Assembly (NCBI GenBank): GCA_018821305.1
Contig: JAHJMN010000059.1
Location: forward strand, 1 to 36,147
Reading direction: 5' to 3'
Length of the DNA stretch: 36,147 bases
From: Myxococcota bacterium
GTDB taxonomy: Bacteria > Myxococcota_A > Polyangia > HGW-17
This document shows positions 27,427 to 36,147 of this stretch, one piece after another. A program made the translations under genes and the position numbers. The notes beneath the pieces are model-generated. The model was not told where the DNA came from and did not search any database. It saw only the letters and a list, made by a program, of their open reading frames with translations. Numbering within the stretch: position 1 is the first letter of the stretch; each line of letters begins with the position of its first letter.

Positions 27427-27473
27427 CTGTTCACTGTCTGATGTTTCAACTTATTTTTACAGGAGATTTTTGC

Positions 27474-29429
27474 ATGAAGACACTTAGAAGCCTTTTCTCA
27501 TTTCTTTTTATCTTCTCCCTGAGTGTTGCTTTAGTTAGCTGTGATTCTTCCAGCTCAAACAACAATAACTCCACCGGGGAAGATCCACTATCCGACCTTG
27601 ATACCCTCATGGCTGGAGCCCCCTCCAATGACGAACTTCCCGAAGACGGAAAAACCGATGCGGTTTATCCTCCAACGTTCGATCTCGGTGATTATCAGTC
27701 CCCCATTAAGAGTCAGGGCAGCCGCGGCGTATGCTCCATTTTTGCAACAGCTGCACTCATGGAACACCTTTATATTAAAGAAGGTTCCATGCCCAATCCA
27801 GACTTCTCCGAACAGTTCCTTCAGTGGTCAGTAAAAGCTGAAGTAAAAAGCTTCCTTGACACCGAAGGTTCCAATGCAAGTTACAATCTTCAGGCAATCA
27901 GCCGTTATGGTATCGTTTTAGAGAGTGACTGGCCCTATGAAAGCCGTCCCTGGTCAACTACCAATGATCCAGAATGTACCGGCGAAGATCGCCCGGTAAA
28001 ATGCTACACAAACGGTGAACCTCCCGCAAGCGCACTCTCCGCCACAAGATGGAAACTTCCTGCTGGCCGTTATGTAAACGCTAAAGCCCGCAGTATCAAA
28101 GCTTTCATGTATGAAAACAAAACCGGCGTTGTTGCTGGTATGACTTTCTTCTATCAGAGCTGGAATCACGGCGCTTCACCGCTTCCGGTAAACAAAGATC
28201 ACTATCGTGGGGGCTACATTCTTTATCCCAATGAAAAAGACAAAGAAGAAAGCCTTAAAAAACGCGCTGGTCACGCAATCCTTCTTCTCGGTTGGGATGA
28301 CAACCTCGAAGTTGAACGCATGGACGAAAACGGCAAAGTTATGACGGATGCTGAAGGCAACCCGATTAAAGAAAAAGGCTTCTTCCTTATTAAAAACAGC
28401 TGGGGCACTGGCGGCTTCGGCGCCAATAACCCCTTCGGTAGCGGTTACGGCTGGCTTTCCTACAAATACGTTGAAGAATATGCTTCCGTTTATGGCAGTG
28501 GCCTTCCCACCGTTAATCTTCACGAAGTATGTGACGACGGCAAAGACAACGACCTCGATGGTAAAGTTGATTGTGAAGATTCCGACTGTGCCGAAGACAG
28601 TGCCTGCGATCCTTCCGGCCTGAAATTCTCCAACAATACAAGCGTTGCAATTCCCGATAATAATACAACTGGCGTTTCCTCTGTAATTAACGTTGCTCAG
28701 GAAGGTAACATCGAATCAGTAAGCGTTACCGTTGATATTACCCACACCTATGCTGGTGACGTAACAATCAAACTCGTAGGTCCCGATGGAACTGAAGAAG
28801 TTCTTCAGGAAAAAGTTGGCGGCAGTGCTGATGACATCAAAAAGACCTTTGCTCCTGCAAACTTTGCTAACAAATCCATCACCGGAGACTGGACTTTGGT
28901 TGTAAGTGATACAGCAGGTTCAGATACTGGTACTCTCAACAAATGGTCCCTTGAATTCAAACTCGGCGGAACTCTTCCCCCGGAAGTTTGCGATGACGGC
29001 ATTGATAACGACGGAAATGGTTTCATTGACTGTGCCGACGAAGCCTGCGCAGAAGACGAAGCTTGTCAGACTGCAACGGAAGTTGACATCACTAATTCAA
29101 ATCCCGTCTCCATTCCCGATAACGATGAAAACGGCGCAACAAGCGTAATCAACGTTGCTGACAGTGGTGAAATCACCTCCCTTCAGATCGATGTAAACAT
29201 TACCCACACCTTCAGAGCTGACCTTCTCGTTTCCGTAATCAGCCCTGCAGGCACAGAAGTAGTTCTCTTCGACGCTGAAGAATACGAAGAAAACCTCATC
29301 AGAACCTTCAACGTTACAGATTTCAACGGTGCTGCTGTAAATGGTAACTGGACCCTTAAAGTTGTCGACCGCTTCAATGGCGACACCGGTACCATCAACT
29401 CATGGCGCCTTTATGCTGTAGTGCAGTAA
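27474..29429 (+). CDS. Papain-like (C1) cysteine protease lipoprotein with two P-domains
   Basis: The 651-residue product has a lipoprotein signal (FSLSVALVSC) and a Ser/Asn linker. A C1A peptidase domain follows with the full triad in order: SQGSRGVCSIF (C87), GHAILLLGWD (H267) and IKNSWG (N308). Then come two copies of an acidic E-V-C-D-D-G-x-D-N-D-x-D-G module (at ~351 and ~504). Each is followed by a P/homB-type domain (ITHTYAGDVTIKLVGPDGTE and ITHTFRADLLVSVISPAGTE, each closing with GxWTLxVxD). P-domains often stabilise or target secreted proteases. Codon choice is unusually uniform, with many GAA, AAC, TTC and CTT codons, and together with the promoter this suggests high expression. The ATG at 27474 is fixed by AGGAG upstream. 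Confidence 0.93.
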   Translation: MKTLRSLFSFLFIFSLSVALVSCDSSSSNNNNSTGEDPLSDLDTLMAGAPSNDELPEDGKTDAVYPPTFDLGDYQSPIKSQGSRGVCSIFATAALMEHLYIKEGSMPNPDFSEQFLQWSVKAEVKSFLDTEGSNASYNLQAISRYGIVLESDWPYESRPWSTTNDPECTGEDRPVKCYTNGEPPASALSATRWKLPAGRYVNAKARSIKAFMYENKTGVVAGMTFFYQSWNHGASPLPVNKDHYRGGYILYPNEKDKEESLKKRAGHAILLLGWDDNLEVERMDENGKVMTDAEGNPIKEKGFFLIKNSWGTGGFGANNPFGSGYGWLSYKYVEEYASVYGSGLPTVNLHEVCDDGKDNDLDGKVDCEDSDCAEDSACDPSGLKFSNNTSVAIPDNNTTGVSSVINVAQEGNIESVSVTVDITHTYAGDVTIKLVGPDGTEEVLQEKVGGSADDIKKTFAPANFANKSITGDWTLVVSDTAGSDTGTLNKWSLEFKLGGTLPPEVCDDGIDNDGNGFIDCADEACAEDEACQTATEVDITNSNPVSIPDNDENGATSVINVADSGEITSLQIDVNITHTFRADLLVSVISPAGTEVVLFDAEEYEENLIRTFNVTDFNGAAVNGNWTLKVVDRFNGDTGTINSWRLYAVVQ

Positions 29430-29537
29430 TTATCTTCCCTCGTCATTTCCTTCTTCAAAATCATCATAAAATCAGATAGTATCATTCCTGAAATCTGGAA
29501 ATCACAGATAGTTCCGTCAATCCATCTGGAGGAAATC

Positions 29538-29972
29538 ATGTCCATGAATCTAATATTGATGAAGTGTCCCGGGTGCGGAGCATCCTTAGAACTTATTCCC
29601 GGCAATCAGACTGCCGTATGTGATTATTGCGGAAATAAATTTATGGTGGACTCAGCCTCATCCTCCAACGTGTCTAATCCAAATCCAGCCCCGGAGATGA
29701 GTGTCACTGAAAATAATGCCACGGAGATTAGTCCATACCTCGAGAAAAAGTTAAAACTTTACATTCTAAAGCAATTTAAAAAAGAGACTGGGATAAAACT
29801 TGACGGCGATGCAATGGCTATGAAACGGATAATTGAAGCTTGCCGTAAAGCGATTCCTGAACTGACAAATACTGGTAAATCAGAAATCAATATTCCGTTC
29901 ATAACCGCAGACGGTTCTGGCCCTAAACATGTAAGTCTTGTGGTCAAAGCTTTCGACATGAAAAACCAGTAG
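29538..29972 (+). CDS. Zinc ribbon fused to an Hsp70 (DnaK) subdomain-IIB fragment
   Basis: The 144-residue cytoplasmic protein begins with a zinc ribbon (CPGC at C10/C13, CDYC at C28/C31). After a Ser/Asn/Pro linker, residues ~67-144 closely resemble part of the DnaK nucleotide-binding domain: LYILKQFKKETGIKLDGDAM corresponds to DnaK [20 protein letters not shown], and EINIPFITADGSGPKHVSL to DNLPYITADATGPKHMNI-type sequence. No phosphate-binding motifs or substrate-binding domain are present, so it cannot be an ATPase chaperone. It may be a relic, or a domain that contacts Hsp70 partners such as GrpE; both are inference. GGAGG lies five bases before the ATG. It stands alone, 530 bases before the radical SAM operon. 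Confidence 0.85.
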   Translation: MSMNLILMKCPGCGASLELIPGNQTAVCDYCGNKFMVDSASSSNVSNPNPAPEMSVTENNATEISPYLEKKLKLYILKQFKKETGIKLDGDAMAMKRIIEACRKAIPELTNTGKSEINIPFITADGSGPKHVSLVVKAFDMKNQ

Positions 29973-30100
29973 TAAAGCGATGGCCACGTTAATTGAGTCT
30001 TTGGATCCAGCAATACAGCAAAGCGCAAGATTATTGAACTGTCGAAGTAGAAAAGCAGGCCAATTGTTTAGAATAGAGCGAAATGTAATGAGCGGAAAGT

Positions 30101-30223
30101 TTTCGACGCCGCAGGCGTGGGGAGTCCAGAGGGGGCGTGCCCCCTTTGCGTCGATTCAAGGGGGATTGGGGGGAAATCGAAATCCCCCCAACTGAGAGGT
30201 TTAAGGAGAGCTGCGCTCTCCTT
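30101..30223. other. Cluster of four hairpins, possible structured RNA or mobile-element remnant
   Basis: Successive perfect stems are ACGCC/GGCGT (30106-30118), AGGGGGC/GCCCCCT (30130-30145), TTGGGGGG/CCCCCCAA (30166-30191) and AAGGAGAGC/GCTCTCCTT (30203-30223). An outer pairing CGACGC (30104-30109) with GCGTCG (30148-30153) could enclose the first two. None is followed by a T run. GCGAAATGTAATGAGCG occurs before the cluster (30078-30094) and again after it (30345-30361). The G-rich composition is unlike the neighbourhood. No gene is supportable in 29973-30504. Confidence 0.6.
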
Positions 30224-30299
30224 GAATAAATATGAGAAGATTAATTTTATTATTAAAAACGGCGTTTAAACTCTTTCGCAGAACGAAATGAGCGAAACT

Positions 30300-30392
30300 A
30301 AAGTGAGCGATATCGTGGCCGCTTTATACATGAAAATGGTTGCAGCGAAATGTAATGAGCGACAAGAACAACTAAAGTAGGGCATCGCTGGA
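30300..30392 (-). repeat. Family-3 repeat, copy 2
   Basis: Its reverse complement runs from CAGCGATGCCC through TTGTCGCTCATTACATTTCG, CATTTTCATGTATAAAGCGG and GATATCGCTCACTT. It matches 23272-23353 with a short insertion and scattered changes. It lies between the hairpin cluster and the promoter of the radical SAM operon. Confidence 0.65.
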
Positions 30393-30424
30393 ATGTTCGA
30401 TTTTCGATGTTTTTCAAAAAAACA

Positions 30425-30469
30425 TGGACAACTTTCTTAATTTGTCCACTATAATATTGTTTCTATAAA
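30425..30469 (+). promoter_or_regulatory. Promoter with operator-like dyad for the radical SAM operon
   Basis: TGGACAA (30425-30431) and TTGTCCA (30442-30448) form a perfect 7-bp dyad with a 10-base spacer, the form of a repressor or activator site. It overlaps two possible promoters: TGGACA with TATAAT at 30450-30455 (spacer 19), or TTGTCC with TATAAA at 30464-30469 (spacer 16). The ribosome site GAGGG and the ATG at 30505 follow. Confidence 0.55.
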
Positions 30470-30504
30470 CTGTTATTACAGTAAAAATTATTCGAGGGTT
30501 TTTG

Positions 30505-31854
30505 ATGAACGATGTACAATTTTTAAATGTAAAGAATTCTATTTTTCCACTGGATTGCGCTTACCTTCCCATTTCAAGGGGTAAGTTGCTTGTTTCCCAA
30601 TCTCATGCCGTTTTCTGCAGCGTAAATCATGACGAAGTTGAAGGTCTTACTTCCTTTATCCAGGGTGATACGACGGAAATAAGCGAAGACATTAAACAAA
30701 GGCTTGAAATACACGGCTTTTTCGGACCACCACGGGAAGCAAAAGCTCCCTCAAGAACGGTGCAGATTCAAATTACCAATGGATGCAATCTCAGTTGTAC
30801 TTACTGCTGTACCAATTCCAGAAATCCCCGTAAATCGGAAATAACCTTAGAAGATGCAAAAAATGTTGTTGAGATAACACGTGAAAAATTAGGTGAAGGT
30901 ATCAGAGTTGCAATTCTCGGTGGAGAGCCACTTTTAAAAGACTGGGCGCTTGATTTGGCAAATTATGCTCAGGGGCTTGGTCTCGATGTTACGGTCTTCT
31001 CTAACGGTGTGCCCCTGGCCGATGAAAATATCGCCCGCCAATGTGCCGAATCCTGTAAAAAAGGCGTCAAATTCCGCCTCAGCCTCGCAGGTCCCGTTAA
31101 AGACCTGTGCGATGCTAAATCCGGAGAACCCAGATATGATGCGGTGATTGCCGGTATCAATTATTTATATGCCCATGGGGGCGAGTGCATAATTGACCTC
31201 ATGCTCTTTCCCGAACATGTGGACAGCACTGCGGCCCATCTGCACGAATTACGCGGAAAGCTGCCTGCGGGAGTGCCAATTGCCTTCGGTATTGCCTATG
31301 TGAGCGGCCGCGAAGTCGGGCAGGATCTTTTTGAAAGTCGCCGGGCCCTCGAAGAATCCCTTGATCGCATCGCTTTCGAGGCTGGAGAAATTATTGCCGC
31401 GGTAAAACCCGCCCCCCTGACAGAACGTCGGGAAGGCTGCACTTGCGCTTTGGGGCACCATCTGCATGTGCGTTCCGATGGTTCACTTTTTAACTGTTTC
31501 AAAATGGAAGAAAAAGTTGGTCATCTTACGGAAGAAGGTTTTGAAAATGCCCTTGATTTCGTCCGCTCAAACCCGAATCCAGCAAGCGGTTTGCAAAAAT
31601 GTTCTGACTGCGTGCTGAACACAATATGCGGGAGCGGATGCCGCAGTGATAACTACCTCTACACGGGTAATCCCGAGCTTCCTCTTTGTGATACATGGCG
31701 GGTAAGGGTCATCAGTGAACTTCTAGCTGATGACTGGGTGAGCGCTTTAGAATGGCCACTTCATCACCTCCTCAGTGAAGCGAAAAATATGGGCATTTCC
31801 TGCCCTGACAAAATTGAACCGGTAATAAAATCAAGGCATCTCATTGATACCTGA
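30505..31854 (+). CDS. Radical SAM/SPASM protein-modifying enzyme
   Basis: The 449-residue protein has an N-terminal ~85-residue domain that could be a substrate-recognition module. A radical SAM core follows with CNLSCTYC (C94, C98, C101) and AILGGEPLL. The C-terminal SPASM/twitch region is rich in cysteines (C312, C314, C331, C366, C369, C375, C379, C395; the core is CSDCVLNTICGSGC). SPASM enzymes hold extra iron-sulfur clusters and usually modify peptide or protein side chains. The four paralogous genes directly downstream are the obvious substrate candidates (inference). The true start is the ATG at 30505, with GAGGG upstream, not the TTG three bases earlier. The next gene begins 11 bases after its stop. 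Confidence 0.93.
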   Translation: MNDVQFLNVKNSIFPLDCAYLPISRGKLLVSQSHAVFCSVNHDEVEGLTSFIQGDTTEISEDIKQRLEIHGFFGPPREAKAPSRTVQIQITNGCNLSCTYCCTNSRNPRKSEITLEDAKNVVEITREKLGEGIRVAILGGEPLLKDWALDLANYAQGLGLDVTVFSNGVPLADENIARQCAESCKKGVKFRLSLAGPVKDLCDAKSGEPRYDAVIAGINYLYAHGGECIIDLMLFPEHVDSTAAHLHELRGKLPAGVPIAFGIAYVSGREVGQDLFESRRALEESLDRIAFEAGEIIAAVKPAPLTERREGCTCALGHHLHVRSDGSLFNCFKMEEKVGHLTEEGFENALDFVRSNPNPASGLQKCSDCVLNTICGSGCRSDNYLYTGNPELPLCDTWRVRVISELLADDWVSALEWPLHHLLSEAKNMGISCPDKIEPVIKSRHLIDT

Positions 31855-31865
31855 AAGGATTTATA

Positions 31866-32624
31866 ATGTCCCCAATTCTTGCCATTTGTCTTGAAAACCT
31901 GAATGCAACATCAGAATCTGAGCGTTACCTGAAATGTACAGCACTTACGGGGCGAAAAAACGCCTTGGTCATTGACGCAGATGGTCTTGTTCACTGGAAG
32001 TCTGATAAAAAAGACGGATTTGAACTCTGGGTTAGTGCCGATGAACGGTTGATTTTGTATCTCCCCGAAGGCGTTGAAATGGAAGTTCAAGTCTCCCGCT
32101 CCGGACGGTCGGTGATGGTTCCAAATGCAAAACCTGTGGTACTCATTGATGGCGATGAGATTTCCATGACTCAATTCCGAATCAGGGTCCACGTACATGG
32201 ATTTGTTGAAGATGAATACTCTCCGTCCTGGTACACGGAGCCTCAGGTATCATCCGGTTCCCGCGTGGTGCGGGCTGCGGCAACGGCGGCCCTTGCATTT
32301 ACAGCTATGGTTGGTATTTCCTGTTCGACAAATGATGGCAAAACGGAAAAACCGAAAATTGAAGTACGGGACAGGCCACCTGACGTTGCTCCCGCAAATC
32401 CGCCCATGAATGTTGAAAAGAAACCGGATCCAACTCCCCCCGTGGAAATTCGCGATAAACCTCCGGAAGCTCCCGCAATTCGCGATGAAGCTGTTAAGCC
32501 CGGAAAGAAACCGGAGAAAAAACCTGAAGAAATGAAACCAGCGGAAATGAAGCCGATGCCGCCGCCGATGATCGAAATCCGTGACAAACCCCCGTCACCT
32601 CCTGCTAAAGGCGATGGAATCTGA
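31866..32624 (+). CDS. Paralogue 1: globular domain, internal lipobox, three I-E-V-R-x-x-P-P motifs
   Basis: The 252-residue protein is of unknown family. Residues 1-128 form a beta-rich globular domain (C8 and C24 conserved in all four paralogues; VSRSGRSV and VVLIDGDEIS faintly recall FHA domains). Residues ~137-153 look like a lipoprotein signal placed inside the protein: VVRAAATAALAFTAMVGISC (C153). The tail is Pro/Lys/Glu-rich and carries IEVRDRPP (165), VEIRDKPP (193) and IEIRDKPP (236). If the signal works, the tail would be outside the cytoplasm as a lipopeptide and the N-domain inside. AAGGA precedes the ATG by six bases. It is the second gene of the operon, next to the SPASM enzyme. 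Confidence 0.88.
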   Translation: MSPILAICLENLNATSESERYLKCTALTGRKNALVIDADGLVHWKSDKKDGFELWVSADERLILYLPEGVEMEVQVSRSGRSVMVPNAKPVVLIDGDEISMTQFRIRVHVHGFVEDEYSPSWYTEPQVSSGSRVVRAAATAALAFTAMVGISCSTNDGKTEKPKIEVRDRPPDVAPANPPMNVEKKPDPTPPVEIRDKPPEAPAIRDEAVKPGKKPEKKPEEMKPAEMKPMPPPMIEIRDKPPSPPAKGDGI

Positions 32625-32675
32625 TTTTTTTTGAACTTCAACGCGTGAGTTGAGTCCACAGACCGGAGGTTTAAG

Positions 32676-33458
32676 ATGTCTGAGAATTATGCGATTTGTA
32701 TTGAGGATTTACTTTTTCAGGATGCTGATAAACGATATCTCATGTGTACGGCCCTTGGTGGAACTGAAAAAGGTCTCGTTATTGATTTAAAAGGCGAAAT
32801 ACACTGGAAAGACTCGGAAACCAGTGGTTTTGAAATCTGCATTTCCGGGGATGATCGTCTCATTCTTTACCTTGAAAGCTCTCCCGGACTTCCACTGACC
32901 GTTTCCCGGGGTGGTCGATCAGTTACGGCAGAAGCGAAAAAACCGATAGTACTCCTGGACGGGGATGAGATTTTCTCAGACTCGTTTCACTATAGACTTC
33001 ATATTCATGGCCGCATTAATTATGAGACGGAACCTTCATATTTTACCCAGACGCCTCAAACGGGCAAAGGAATGCGCACTGCTACTGCGGCGGCCCTTGC
33101 ACTCACGGCCATGACCGCATCTGCTTGCACCGGAAACGACACGAAAAAGCCTGAAAAGGAAAAAATTGAAGTTCGCGATAATCCGCCGAAAATGGCACCA
33201 CAGCCTGAGCCGGAAAAACCGCCCCAGGATGATAAAAATAATAATGATATGAAGCACCGCAACGACAAAGAAGGCACCGAAGATATCTCATCTGTTACGG
33301 TCCCGTCCACCAGAGTGGGAGCAGTTGTGTATCCACCAATTGAAGTGAGAACGGCTCCACCGAAAGTAGCCCCTCCGAAAAAACCGCCTATGAAGCCTGA
33401 GGATGAAGAAGATAAACCAATGAAACCACCGAAAAAACCAATTAAAGGTAAGAAGTAG
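32676..33458 (+). CDS. Paralogue 2: globular domain, internal lipobox, two I-E-V-R-x-x-P-P motifs
   Basis: The 260-residue protein is closely related to paralogue 3 in its N-domain (MSENYAICIEDLLFQDADKR; C8, C24; SRGGRSVTAEAKKPIVLLDG) and tail. An internal signal-like segment ends in ALTAMTASAC (C151). The tail carries IEVRDNPPKMAP (164) and IEVRTAPPKVAPP (222), separated by an Asp/Asn-rich stretch and GTEDISSVTVP, which paralogue 3 shares. It ends in Pro/Lys repeats (KPPKKP). There is no catalytic motif. GGAGG lies seven bases upstream of the ATG. The 51-base gap from paralogue 1 shows no terminator, so one transcript is likely. Confidence 0.88.
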   Translation: MSENYAICIEDLLFQDADKRYLMCTALGGTEKGLVIDLKGEIHWKDSETSGFEICISGDDRLILYLESSPGLPLTVSRGGRSVTAEAKKPIVLLDGDEIFSDSFHYRLHIHGRINYETEPSYFTQTPQTGKGMRTATAAALALTAMTASACTGNDTKKPEKEKIEVRDNPPKMAPQPEPEKPPQDDKNNNDMKHRNDKEGTEDISSVTVPSTRVGAVVYPPIEVRTAPPKVAPPKKPPMKPEDEEDKPMKPPKKPIKGKK

Positions 33459-33489
33459 TGATTACGAGGATATAACTGGAGGTTTTCTA

Positions 33490-34275
33490 ATGTCTGAATG
33501 TTATGCAATTTGTATTGAGAATTTGTATTCAACGGATCCGGATAAGCGGTATCTCATGTGCACAGCACTTAAAGGAGCGCAAAAGGGCCTCGTAATAGAT
33601 GCGCAGGGCAATATAAACTGGAAAAATACGGAAGTTGAGGGTCTTGAACTCTGCATTTCCGGCGATGACAGGTTGATCCTCTATCTTGAAACTCCTTTTA
33701 AAGATACATTGACAGTTTCAAGAGGTGGCAGGTCGGTGACGGCGGAACAGAAAAAACCCGTGGTGCTTTTAGACGGGGATGAGATTTACTCAACTTCGTT
33801 TCACTACCGGCTTCACATTCACGGAAAAGTAAACTACTCAAATGAACCTTCATATTTTACCCAGTCATCACAGTCTTCTGCGGGAAAGAAGGCTGCCACA
33901 GCCGCCGTTTTTGCCCTCACGGCAATGATGGGCACTTCATGTACTGGTTCCGGAAGTGATACTAAAAAGCCGGAAAAAGAAAAAATCGAAGTTCGGGATC
34001 AGCCCCCAAGTATTGCTCCGGATCCTGAGCCGCCCAAGCCAAAGGAAGAAAAGAAAGATAACAACGATATGAAGGGAACAGAGGACATTTCATCGGTAAA
34101 TGTGCCGGAGAATAAAGTTGGGGCAAGCATCAATCCTCCCATTGAAGTCAGGCATGCGCCGCCGGTTGTAGCACCTCCGCCCATGAAACCGCCCATGAAG
34201 CCCGACGACAAAAAACCCATGAAACCCCCGAAAAAACCTGATAAGGATAAAAACGGTGGTAAAAATAGCAGGTGA
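33490..34275 (+). CDS. Paralogue 3: globular domain, internal lipobox, two I-E-V-R-x-x-P-P motifs
   Basis: The 261-residue protein is the nearest relative of paralogue 2, probably from a recent tandem duplication: the first 130 residues are very similar (MSECYAICIENLYSTDPDKR). C8 and C24 are kept. The internal segment KKAATAAVFALTAMMGTSC places the lipobox Cys at 151. The tail has IEVRDQPPSIAP (166) and IEVRHAPPVVAPP (218) with the shared GTEDISSVNVP between them, then a Pro/Lys-rich end. GGAGG lies seven bases before the ATG. It is the fourth gene of the operon. Confidence 0.88.
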   Translation: MSECYAICIENLYSTDPDKRYLMCTALKGAQKGLVIDAQGNINWKNTEVEGLELCISGDDRLILYLETPFKDTLTVSRGGRSVTAEQKKPVVLLDGDEIYSTSFHYRLHIHGKVNYSNEPSYFTQSSQSSAGKKAATAAVFALTAMMGTSCTGSGSDTKKPEKEKIEVRDQPPSIAPDPEPPKPKEEKKDNNDMKGTEDISSVNVPENKVGASINPPIEVRHAPPVVAPPPMKPPMKPDDKKPMKPPKKPDKDKNGGKNSR

Positions 34276-34311
34276 AGTGGGATGACCGAAAAACCCTGAG
34301 GAGATATAAAA

Positions 34312-35022
34312 ATGCATGACCCAGTAGCTGTTTGTCTTGAGCGTGTAAACCCAAAGCCCGGAGAAAACCGATTTGTTCAGTGCACTGTAATCACGGGAGC
34401 TGAAACGGGCCTTGGTCTTGATGAGCATGGAAACGCCACCTGGCGTGATATGGCCTCTACCGTAGCGGAGTTTTTCATTTCCGCCGACGACCGTGTTATG
34501 TTTCTGAAGACGGAAAAATGCACCGGAGAAGCAATCGTTTCCCGCGAGGGCCGTAGTCTGGCTGCCCCGGTTAATAAGCCCGTTGTCATTATCCACGGCG
34601 ACACAATAAAAATTGCGGACCGCATCCTGAAAATCCACCTTCATGGTCAAACGGAATATATTCATGCTCCACAGGACCTCATTCCCGAAGTTGATGCTAA
34701 ACCGCAAACCAAAGTCTTGAAAGCTGCCTCTCTGGCGGCGGCCATTGCAGCGACAGCAGTAATTTCAACGGGATGTGCACCAGAGAAAAAAGGAACCGAT
34801 GCGGCAAAAAGCACGGATAATGCTCCCATGCTCCCATCGGGAATGGCCGGAAACATGACCAGCGACGCCACGGACCTCAAAACAATGCAGCCAGATATGA
34901 CAGAAACCATGGCACCGCCTCCAATGATTGAAGTAAGACATCACCCCCCGAAACCAGTAATGCCCAGAAATCCAAATCCCCCAACAGGCAACAAATCCGA
35001 AGACACCGAAGACACCGAGTAA
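34312..35022 (+). CDS. Paralogue 4: diverged member with one I-E-V-R-x-x-P-P motif
   Basis: The 236-residue protein is the most diverged of the four. It keeps C8 and C24 (MHDPVAVCLERVNP, RFVQCTVI), the SREGRSLAAPVNKPVVIIHG strand pair and the internal signal-like segment KAASLAAAIAATAVISTGC (C155). The tail is shorter, Met/Thr-rich rather than Lys-rich, and carries a single IEVRHHPPKPVMP (206) before an acidic end (SEDTEDTE). AGGAG lies seven to eight bases upstream of the ATG. Its different tail composition but conserved motif argues that the motif, not the surrounding Pro/Lys text, is under selection. Confidence 0.87.
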   Translation: MHDPVAVCLERVNPKPGENRFVQCTVITGAETGLGLDEHGNATWRDMASTVAEFFISADDRVMFLKTEKCTGEAIVSREGRSLAAPVNKPVVIIHGDTIKIADRILKIHLHGQTEYIHAPQDLIPEVDAKPQTKVLKAASLAAAIAATAVISTGCAPEKKGTDAAKSTDNAPMLPSGMAGNMTSDATDLKTMQPDMTETMAPPPMIEVRHHPPKPVMPRNPNPPTGNKSEDTEDTE

Positions 35023-35055
35023 AAACCGCACGCTGCAAAGTATCAGGAGATGTTA

Positions 35056-35802
35056 TTGAAACTACTACTTTTAAGCGATCTGCATCTTGAATTCGTCGAT
35101 CTCAGTTTATCTGCCTGCAGGCCTGATGTAGTGGTTTTAGCTGGTGACATAAGTAAGGGGACAGATGGAATTGACTGGATTGTAAGGCAAAAATTTAAAT
35201 GTCCAGTTGTTTATATAGCGGGTAATCATGAGTTTTACGGTCATAAGTATCCTGGTCTCATTTTAAAGATGAGAGAAAAAGCGCAATTCGAAGGTATCTC
35301 GTTTCTGGAAAATGAGAGCGTTGAAATTGGTTATGTGACTTTCCATGGGGCTACTTTGTGGACAAATTTCAGCCTTTTTGGAGATCCGAAAATAAGTGGT
35401 ACAGACTGTCAACTTGGAATGTCCGATTTCCATCGAATAAGAAGGGAACCCTCATATTCAAAAATCCGAGCAATGGACGTTTCAGTTATTCACGAGAAAA
35501 CTATTCGATGGCTTTCCCACAGCCTTCAAAACTCAAATTCAAAAGTTAACGTTGTTGTAACCCATCACGCTCCTTCAATAAAATCAGTAGAATCGAATTT
35601 TTTAAAAGATCCTCTTACACCTGGATATGTAACTAATCTGGAGGATTTCATTCTGGAACATAAGCCTGACCTGTGGCTGCATGGCCATATCCATACAAGT
35701 TCTGATTATAACATTGGCTCCTGCAGGGTTTTATGTAATCCCCGGGGATACATTGGAGAATTCAATCCCAATTTCCGCGAGGATTTCCTGATTGAAATCT
35801 GA
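35056..35802 (+). CDS. Calcineurin-like metallophosphoesterase
   Basis: The 248-residue protein has the complete metal-binding motif series of the family: SDLHLEF (Asp, His), LAGDISKG (Asp), AGNHEFYG (Asn, His), VVTHHAPS (His) and HGHIH (His-x-His). These enzymes hydrolyse phosphomono- or diesters (nucleotides, nucleic acids or phosphoproteins); the substrate is not evident. The start is most likely the TTG at 35056, because AGGAG lies six bases upstream and the product then begins MKLLLLSDLHLE, like many relatives. The ATG at 35050 would place the ribosome site on top of the start codon. It lies 34 bases after paralogue 4 on the same strand and may be the last gene of the operon. Confidence 0.92.
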   Translation: MKLLLLSDLHLEFVDLSLSACRPDVVVLAGDISKGTDGIDWIVRQKFKCPVVYIAGNHEFYGHKYPGLILKMREKAQFEGISFLENESVEIGYVTFHGATLWTNFSLFGDPKISGTDCQLGMSDFHRIRREPSYSKIRAMDVSVIHEKTIRWLSHSLQNSNSKVNVVVTHHAPSIKSVESNFLKDPLTPGYVTNLEDFILEHKPDLWLHGHIHTSSDYNIGSCRVLCNPRGYIGEFNPNFREDFLIEI

Positions 35803-35805
35803 ATC

Positions 35806-35963
35806 CCATCGACATGAATGACAACACCCTGCTCCTGTTCCTGTTCCCTGACTTCCTGCGTTCCTGTTAAAAATTCAGGCATTCAGGTAATCAGGCGCAG
35901 GGACAGGCAATCAGGGTCATTCTCCTGAAGGATTTCAATAAATGAATCATACCGCTTCGAAAA
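35806..35963 (+). repeat. Family-1 repeat, copy F (diverged)
   Basis: CCTG words at 35829-35868 and CAGG words at 35877-35908 form the family hairpin. The right part CTCCTGAAGGATTTC to ATCATACCGCTTC corresponds to the conserved right end of copies B and E. It immediately follows the phosphoesterase gene. The remaining 35964-36147 shows only two small stems (GAGCCAC/GTGGCTC at 36088-36104, and GATTCT/AGAATC near the edge) and no gene I can support. Confidence 0.65.
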
Positions 35964-36147
35964 CCGGGATGACCTGTATGACGACACCTGAATTCAACTC
36001 CGATGTTGAATCCGCGGATCATAAAGAACAAGGAATAACGCGAATTCTGATTCAACCCGCTGACCTCAAAAAGAAACACCGGAAAAAGAGCCACAACGTG
36101 GCTCACACACATTAGCGAAGGGATTAAAGATTCTGCAAGAATCGAAA

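Follow-up and report, generated by a model that had tools for sequence, protein, structure and literature searches.

A candidate radical SAM/SPASM protein-maturation system with FHA-fold, lipoprotein-like substrates in a Myxococcota genome

We analyzed a 36,147-nucleotide stretch of DNA from a Myxococcota bacterium (GenBank contig JAHJMN010000059.1; hereafter the window). This stretch makes up all of contig C76 in a genome of 5.2 Mb (97.7% complete). Close to its 3' end, a gene for a radical S-adenosylmethionine (SAM) enzyme of the SPASM type is followed by four paralogous genes and by a phosphoesterase gene. We propose that the enzyme and the paralogues belong to one protein-maturation system. 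The six genes are all on the + strand, and the successive gaps from the enzyme gene to the phosphoesterase gene measure 11, 51, 31, 36 and 27 bp:

30505..31854, + strand: radical SAM/SPASM enzyme gene, 449 amino acids (ATG at 30505, stop ending at 31854; PF04055, E = 3.6e-18)
31866..32624, + strand: paralogue 1, proposed substrate, 252 amino acids, three tail motifs
32676..33458, + strand: paralogue 2, proposed substrate, 260 amino acids, two tail motifs
33490..34275, + strand: paralogue 3, proposed substrate, 261 amino acids, two tail motifs
34312..35022, + strand: paralogue 4, proposed substrate, 236 amino acids, one tail motif
35050..35802, + strand: calcineurin-like phosphoesterase gene (PF00149, E = 6e-14)

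A preliminary description of the window had reported this gene order and the short spacing, and both were recovered here. It had also placed the run behind one promoter, which found no support here. A scan for sigma-70-like promoters returned fewer sites than in shuffled sequences, and the + strand immediately before position 30505 had none. It is therefore the short gaps that suggest a single transcript. An Rfam search of positions 29400-36147 returned no matches.

The enzyme and the paralogues

The enzyme is a SPASM enzyme of the peptide-maturase type. All 20 members of its family match the SPASM model TIGR04085. Across 20 orthologues, the cysteines of the radical SAM cluster and of the SPASM region never vary, and neither do C202 and, in the N-terminal domain, C38. 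The structure predicted for the enzyme has a predicted local distance difference test score (pLDDT) of 88, and its closest folds in the PDB belong to the peptide maturases CteB, SkfB and SuiB. The N-terminal elements follow the order strand-strand-strand-helix-helix. CteB (PDB 5wgg), which carries a recognition domain, aligns with the model from residue 15 on, recognition domain included. As modeled, the N-terminal domain is likely to resemble the recognition element of ribosomally synthesized and post-translationally modified peptide (RiPP) systems.

30505..30744, + strand: enzyme N-terminal domain, likely RiPP-recognition-element-like (three strands and two helices predicted)
30784..30807, + strand: radical SAM CxxxCxxC cluster motif (C94, C98, C101), invariant in 20 orthologues
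31438..31689, + strand: SPASM cysteines C312, C314, C331, C366, C369, C375, C379 and C395, all invariant in 20 orthologues

No radical SAM equivalog of NCBIfam scored above its curated cut-off; the best reached 70 bits where 500 are required. Membership of the enzyme in a named radical SAM family was rejected on these scores, and the NCBIfam comparison linked it to no family with a known, unrelated substrate. The preliminary description had likewise been unable to match a named system.

Paralogues 2, 3 and 4 are 49, 48 and 34% identical to paralogue 1, confirming the common architecture seen earlier. The four share C8, E10, C24, a V-S-R-x-G-R-S stretch and H109-x-H111-G. After a shared hydrophobic segment ending in Cys, they diverge into proline-rich tails.

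31866..32207, + strand: residues 1-114 of paralogue 1, N-domain with FHA fold (model and alignment), proposed as the leader
32271..32324, + strand: Ala-rich hydrophobic stretch in paralogue 1 with a lipobox-like Cys (C153) at its end; full-length relatives have an equivalent
32358..32381, + strand: tail motif IEVRDRPP (paralogue 1)
32442..32465, + strand: tail motif VEIRDKPP (paralogue 1)
32571..32594, + strand: tail motif IEIRDKPP (paralogue 1)
33165..33188, + strand: tail motif IEVRDNPP (paralogue 2)
33339..33362, + strand: tail motif IEVRTAPP (paralogue 2)
33985..34008, + strand: tail motif IEVRDQPP (paralogue 3)
34141..34164, + strand: tail motif IEVRHAPP (paralogue 3)
34927..34950, + strand: tail motif IEVRHHPP (paralogue 4)

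An alignment of 21 N-domains shows ten invariant residues, C8, E10, C24, D59, R78, R81, D97, H109, H111 and G112. The N-domain model is all beta (pLDDT 88). In the PDB, the 50 entries that it matches best all are FHA domains or proteins containing one, and Z scores reach 10.3 over some 99 residues. According to this model, the folded N-domain of the preliminary description is specifically a degenerate FHA fold. The N-domain has no FHA match in Pfam. A profile of the family, A3, also matches one canonical FHA domain (E = 1e-6). Because a PDB sequence search with the N-domain profile retrieved no FHA chain, the assignment draws on the fold and on this weak match to a canonical FHA protein. The phosphothreonine motif of FHA domains, S-x-x-H, is not conserved: S77 is variable and the His is missing in 20 of the 21 sequences, L014 alone reading VSRAHRR. 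Two clades of N-domains can be distinguished. They are related (hhalign probability 97.6) and have C24, both arginines (R78 and R81) and D97 in common. The N-domain of a protein encoded at L010:2786-3766 weakly matches Pfam DUF7161 at E = 4e-4, under the cut-off, which may point to another relative.

The Ala-rich segment is preceded by Lys/Arg and begins near residue 130, away from the protein N-terminus. It ends in a lipobox-like Cys in about 47 of 57 full-length members; a few have AxA-like or Cys-free ends instead. From their sequence, the segment and its Cys form a putative signal-peptidase-like cleavage site, in line with the membrane-export segment proposed earlier.

The tails carry the motif [IV][ED][VI]RxxPP, which accounts for the eight copies listed above. 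In clade 1, it is found 103 times in 62 sequences, compared with 0.17 expected from shuffled tails. Each protein has 1-5 copies, and none lies in an N-domain. A search of the entire 5.2 Mb genome gave 10 matches, eight of them within the four window paralogues. The motif was rejected as a wider feature of the genome: outside matches to its codon pattern are unrelated single occurrences (an NtrC-type regulator, HPr kinase, a HypF-like protein and others), with the exception of one tail that the end of a contig truncates. Orthologue pairs whose N-domains are 80-95% identical show at least 95% identity at motif positions 1-4, 7 and 8, versus 75% over the remaining tail. The pairs were preselected for motif presence, which biases the value upward, but the two variable positions of the motif, at 80%, provide an internal control.

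The tail motif, already named in the preliminary description, is carried by clade-1 tails and is not universal. Clade-2 tails contain xSGDxxP between Cys-rich modules, or repeats such as RLSGKK, RLMGAPK or VTGDVPDP. VxxRxxG[DK] was dropped as a clade-2 motif because these tails vary too much to give a firm consensus. In the diverged clade f49, the tails at L058, L061, L063, L131 and L145 are long arrays of Cys-rich modules (C..DxxVYxCxxGxW) with xSG[DEV]xxP linkers. The Cys-rich arrays of clade 2 are possibly a different core for the same type of enzyme.

The paralogues range from about 200 to 500 residues, beyond what defines a short-precursor, small-peptide RiPP. Some substrate-like proteins have additional exported domains in their tails. 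One, at L008:9472-10311, has a LysM domain after the motif-rich stretch, and others in Chloroflexota (L009, L010, L012 and L015) have an unnamed C-terminal domain at the same place. Since domains follow it in these proteins, the motif region can act as a linker.

Distribution of the two gene families

Enzyme relatives at 46-63% identity are found in Myxococcota, Lentisphaerae, Kiritimatiellae, Chloroflexota, Zixibacteria and Deltaproteobacteria, as the genomes are labeled in their records. The paralogue domain adjoins the enzyme gene in all nine genomes reached via the enzyme, which belong to several phyla. This count is conditioned on finding the enzyme first, and the independent test is that genomes without the enzyme also lack the domain. 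The profile search used for it scores only the best first-look candidates of each genome, so that weak members may be missed. Nine of 284 Myxococcota genomes carry the enzyme. The N-domain profile matches six of these nine versus none of the 275 enzyme-negative genomes (Fisher 1e-10). The three that it missed are of clade f49 and encode diverged N-domains right upstream of the enzyme. Among 59 nearer relatives, matches occur in 12 of 13 enzyme-positive versus 0 of 46 enzyme-negative genomes (Fisher 1e-11); the one enzyme-positive genome with no match is G013, whose enzyme gene is truncated. In the f49 family, whose enzyme is 33-36% identical, the domain is present in 6/6 enzyme-positive and 0/2 enzyme-negative genomes. 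Of 396 Anaerolineae, three gave strong matches, all known enzyme carriers; a fourth, weak match is an ordinary FHA protein. No paralogue was seen without the enzyme in the genomes sampled, and the pairing across unrelated genomes that the preliminary description expected is upheld.

A genome with one enzyme gene can hold as many as 11 paralogues, of which several are on other contigs and many lie far from the enzyme gene (11 in G006, six each in G004 and G041, five each in G025 and G007). Identities between enzymes covary with those between N-domains (rank correlation rho 0.83 overall and 0.78 in clade 1; permutation p 0.0005).

Between the window neighborhood and 24 other loci, two gene families are shared, the enzyme and the paralogues, and no third. 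The phosphoesterase, which the preliminary description had included, does end the gene run here, but it has relatives in 0/24 of these loci and was rejected as a conserved partner. A dedicated exporter or protease gene was rejected on the same comparison. A viral or plasmid origin was also rejected, enzyme relatives being absent from the viral contigs and plasmids searched.

Proposed mechanism and alternatives

The co-occurrence supports the earlier suggestion that the paralogues are the substrates of the enzyme. This is the strongest part of our interpretation, and we regard it as very probable; the modification itself stays a proposal. The tail is likely to be the part that is modified, with less certainty because the two clades share the N-domain and not the tail motif. 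Overall, we consider it probable that the locus encodes a radical SAM/SPASM protein-maturation system in which the FHA-fold N-domain is the leader and the tail motifs are modified before export. We infer the action of the enzyme on the paralogues, the choice of the tail over the N-domain and the following order of events. The recognition-element-like domain of the enzyme would bind the N-domain of each paralogue, a large folded leader. In the cytoplasm, 5'-deoxyadenosyl-radical chemistry would then act on the repeated hydrophobic-acidic-hydrophobic-Arg core of [IV][ED][VI]RxxPP. The Ala-rich segment would carry the tail across the membrane. There, a signal peptidase, usually of type II and acting at the Cys, would free it as a membrane-anchored or surface tail. 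A single enzyme would in this way serve several substrates, linked and unlinked.

The fixed hydrophobic positions of the motif are Ile and Val. The likeliest candidate chemistry is bond formation without cysteine, for example a Val/Ile cyclopropane or a side-chain link between Glu/Val and Arg; epimerization comes next. Because the motif has neither a Cys nor a fixed aromatic residue, thioethers and aromatic cyclophanes are argued against.

Several observations weigh against this proposal. Sec export does not usually rely on a signal-like segment placed 130 residues into the protein. In one Deltaproteobacterium (L014), PIDTNDTPP replaces PIDVRDAPP while the N-domain is kept. IEVRxxPP is missing from the f49 clade, which also keeps the N-domain and whose tails have other repeats (xxG[DEKV], some Cys-rich). 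In G013 (L056:6946-7542), the N-domain is absent and the enzyme gene retains, in a single frame, only the first ~149 residues and the last ~55; this gene is a decayed copy or an assembly error. Finally, the N-domain could itself be the modified part, because C24, R78, R81 and D97 persist in both clades.

That last point opens the alternative that the enzyme acts on the N-domain, for example at C24 or at the conserved Arg/His, to make a cofactor or a crosslink, while the tail motif has another role such as binding cell-envelope partners. The persistence of C24, the RxxR pair and D97 as the tail motif changes would fit such a role, as would the invariance of C8, H109 and H111 in clade 1. However, an invariant leader with a changing core is what leader-guided enzymes normally show. 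Moreover, the motif is repeated one to five times per protein and confined to proteins that have the N-domain, and a small folded domain would probably fit the active site of a peptide maturase poorly. We judge modification of the N-domain to be unlikely.

Two other explanations leave the paralogues unmodified or the enzyme incidental, and we give them lower odds still. The paralogues could be partners, either a scaffold or a membrane anchor holding the enzyme, with the true substrate elsewhere. FHA domains usually bind other proteins, and the paralogues exceed the normal size of precursors. Against this stand the number of paralogues per single enzyme, up to 11 and unlinked, the constraint on the repeated tail motifs, and the fact that a third conserved gene was not found; such a role seems improbable. 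As for the N-domain being the cytoplasmic phosphothreonine reader of a single-pass signaling protein, with the phosphoesterase and the radical enzyme as chance neighbors, the FHA fold and the phosphoesterase in the same gene run are in its favor. The canonical S-x-x-H is not conserved, Pfam does not recognize an FHA domain, and across phyla it is the enzyme that is strictly co-present and not the phosphoesterase. This explanation is very improbable.

The system proposed here, in which modified tails would be led by the FHA-fold domain, has partial precedents. Most known radical SAM peptide maturases work on short peptides, where cysteine or aromatic residues are frequent sites of action. With CteB/SCIFF and the ranthipeptide and sactipeptide maturases SkfB, PapB and StsB, the enzyme shares the radical SAM core, the SPASM cysteines and the nearest PDB folds, and CteB also has an N-terminal recognition domain like the one proposed here. 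Unlike these enzymes, whose peptide substrates contain Cys, ours would act on a core motif without Cys, and its scores are far below the equivalog cut-offs. The anaerobic sulfatase-maturating enzyme, anSME, is a SPASM enzyme that modifies full-size exported proteins in trans, with several substrates per enzyme. Its fold is similar, and several full-size exported substrates per enzyme are proposed here too; anSME, however, needs Cys/Ser in a sulfatase motif, and the proposed substrates are not sulfatases. In RiPPs with Nif11- and nitrile-hydratase-like leaders, a long protein-derived leader serves many precursors and one maturase, and the product is a small peptide. The proposed system would likewise have a long leader common to many precursors; the leader fold differs and the product would not be a small peptide. 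As in RiPP systems generally, the precursor-type gene adjoins the maturase gene. The N-domain has the fold of FHA domains without their conserved phosphopeptide-binding residues, and would be used as a leader. Most members end their hydrophobic segment in Cys like bacterial lipoproteins, although the segment is not N-terminal.

The nearest functional precedent is TvgB of Halomonas, a SPASM enzyme that converts Val of repeated TVGG motifs to cyclopropylglycine (PMC9062424). The likeness would be one of function, a SPASM-type enzyme acting repeatedly on a repeated Val-containing motif. TvgA is a peptide with peptidase and transporter genes alongside; here we find an FHA-fold domain, a signal-like segment and no conserved dedicated exporter.

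Modification of proteins by radical SAM/SPASM enzymes is known. In the open-licence papers searched for radical SAM enzymes with FHA, lipoprotein or proline-rich substrates, we found no description of an FHA-fold leader, of full-length exported lipoprotein-like substrates encoded across the genome or of this Cys-free motif. We lean slightly towards a broader view, a new class of radical SAM protein modification. In it, the FHA-fold domain would serve as a general leader and single out many different exported tails for modification at a Cys-free motif, so that bacteria of several phyla would display chemically altered surface lipoproteins. One enzyme apparently serves up to 11 exported proteins per genome through a common folded FHA-type leader, and the parts list comes to two genes. 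If correct, the proposal points to a novel reaction, bond-forming or stereochemical, at unactivated side chains, and to a new route by which such modifications reach the cell surface.

Neighboring sequences

The non-coding DNA upstream of the enzyme gene contains an imperfect 23-nucleotide direct repeat (91%), at window positions 30077-30099 and 30344-30366. Further upstream, positions 29538-29972 hold an open reading frame of 144 amino acids that combines a CxxC zinc ribbon with a 65-residue piece matching only residues 225-292 of DnaK/HSP70. The protein encoded at positions 27441-29429 is secreted and lipoprotein-like; in it, a papain-type (C1) protease domain is combined with two proprotein-convertase P domains and with acidic double-disulfide repeats.

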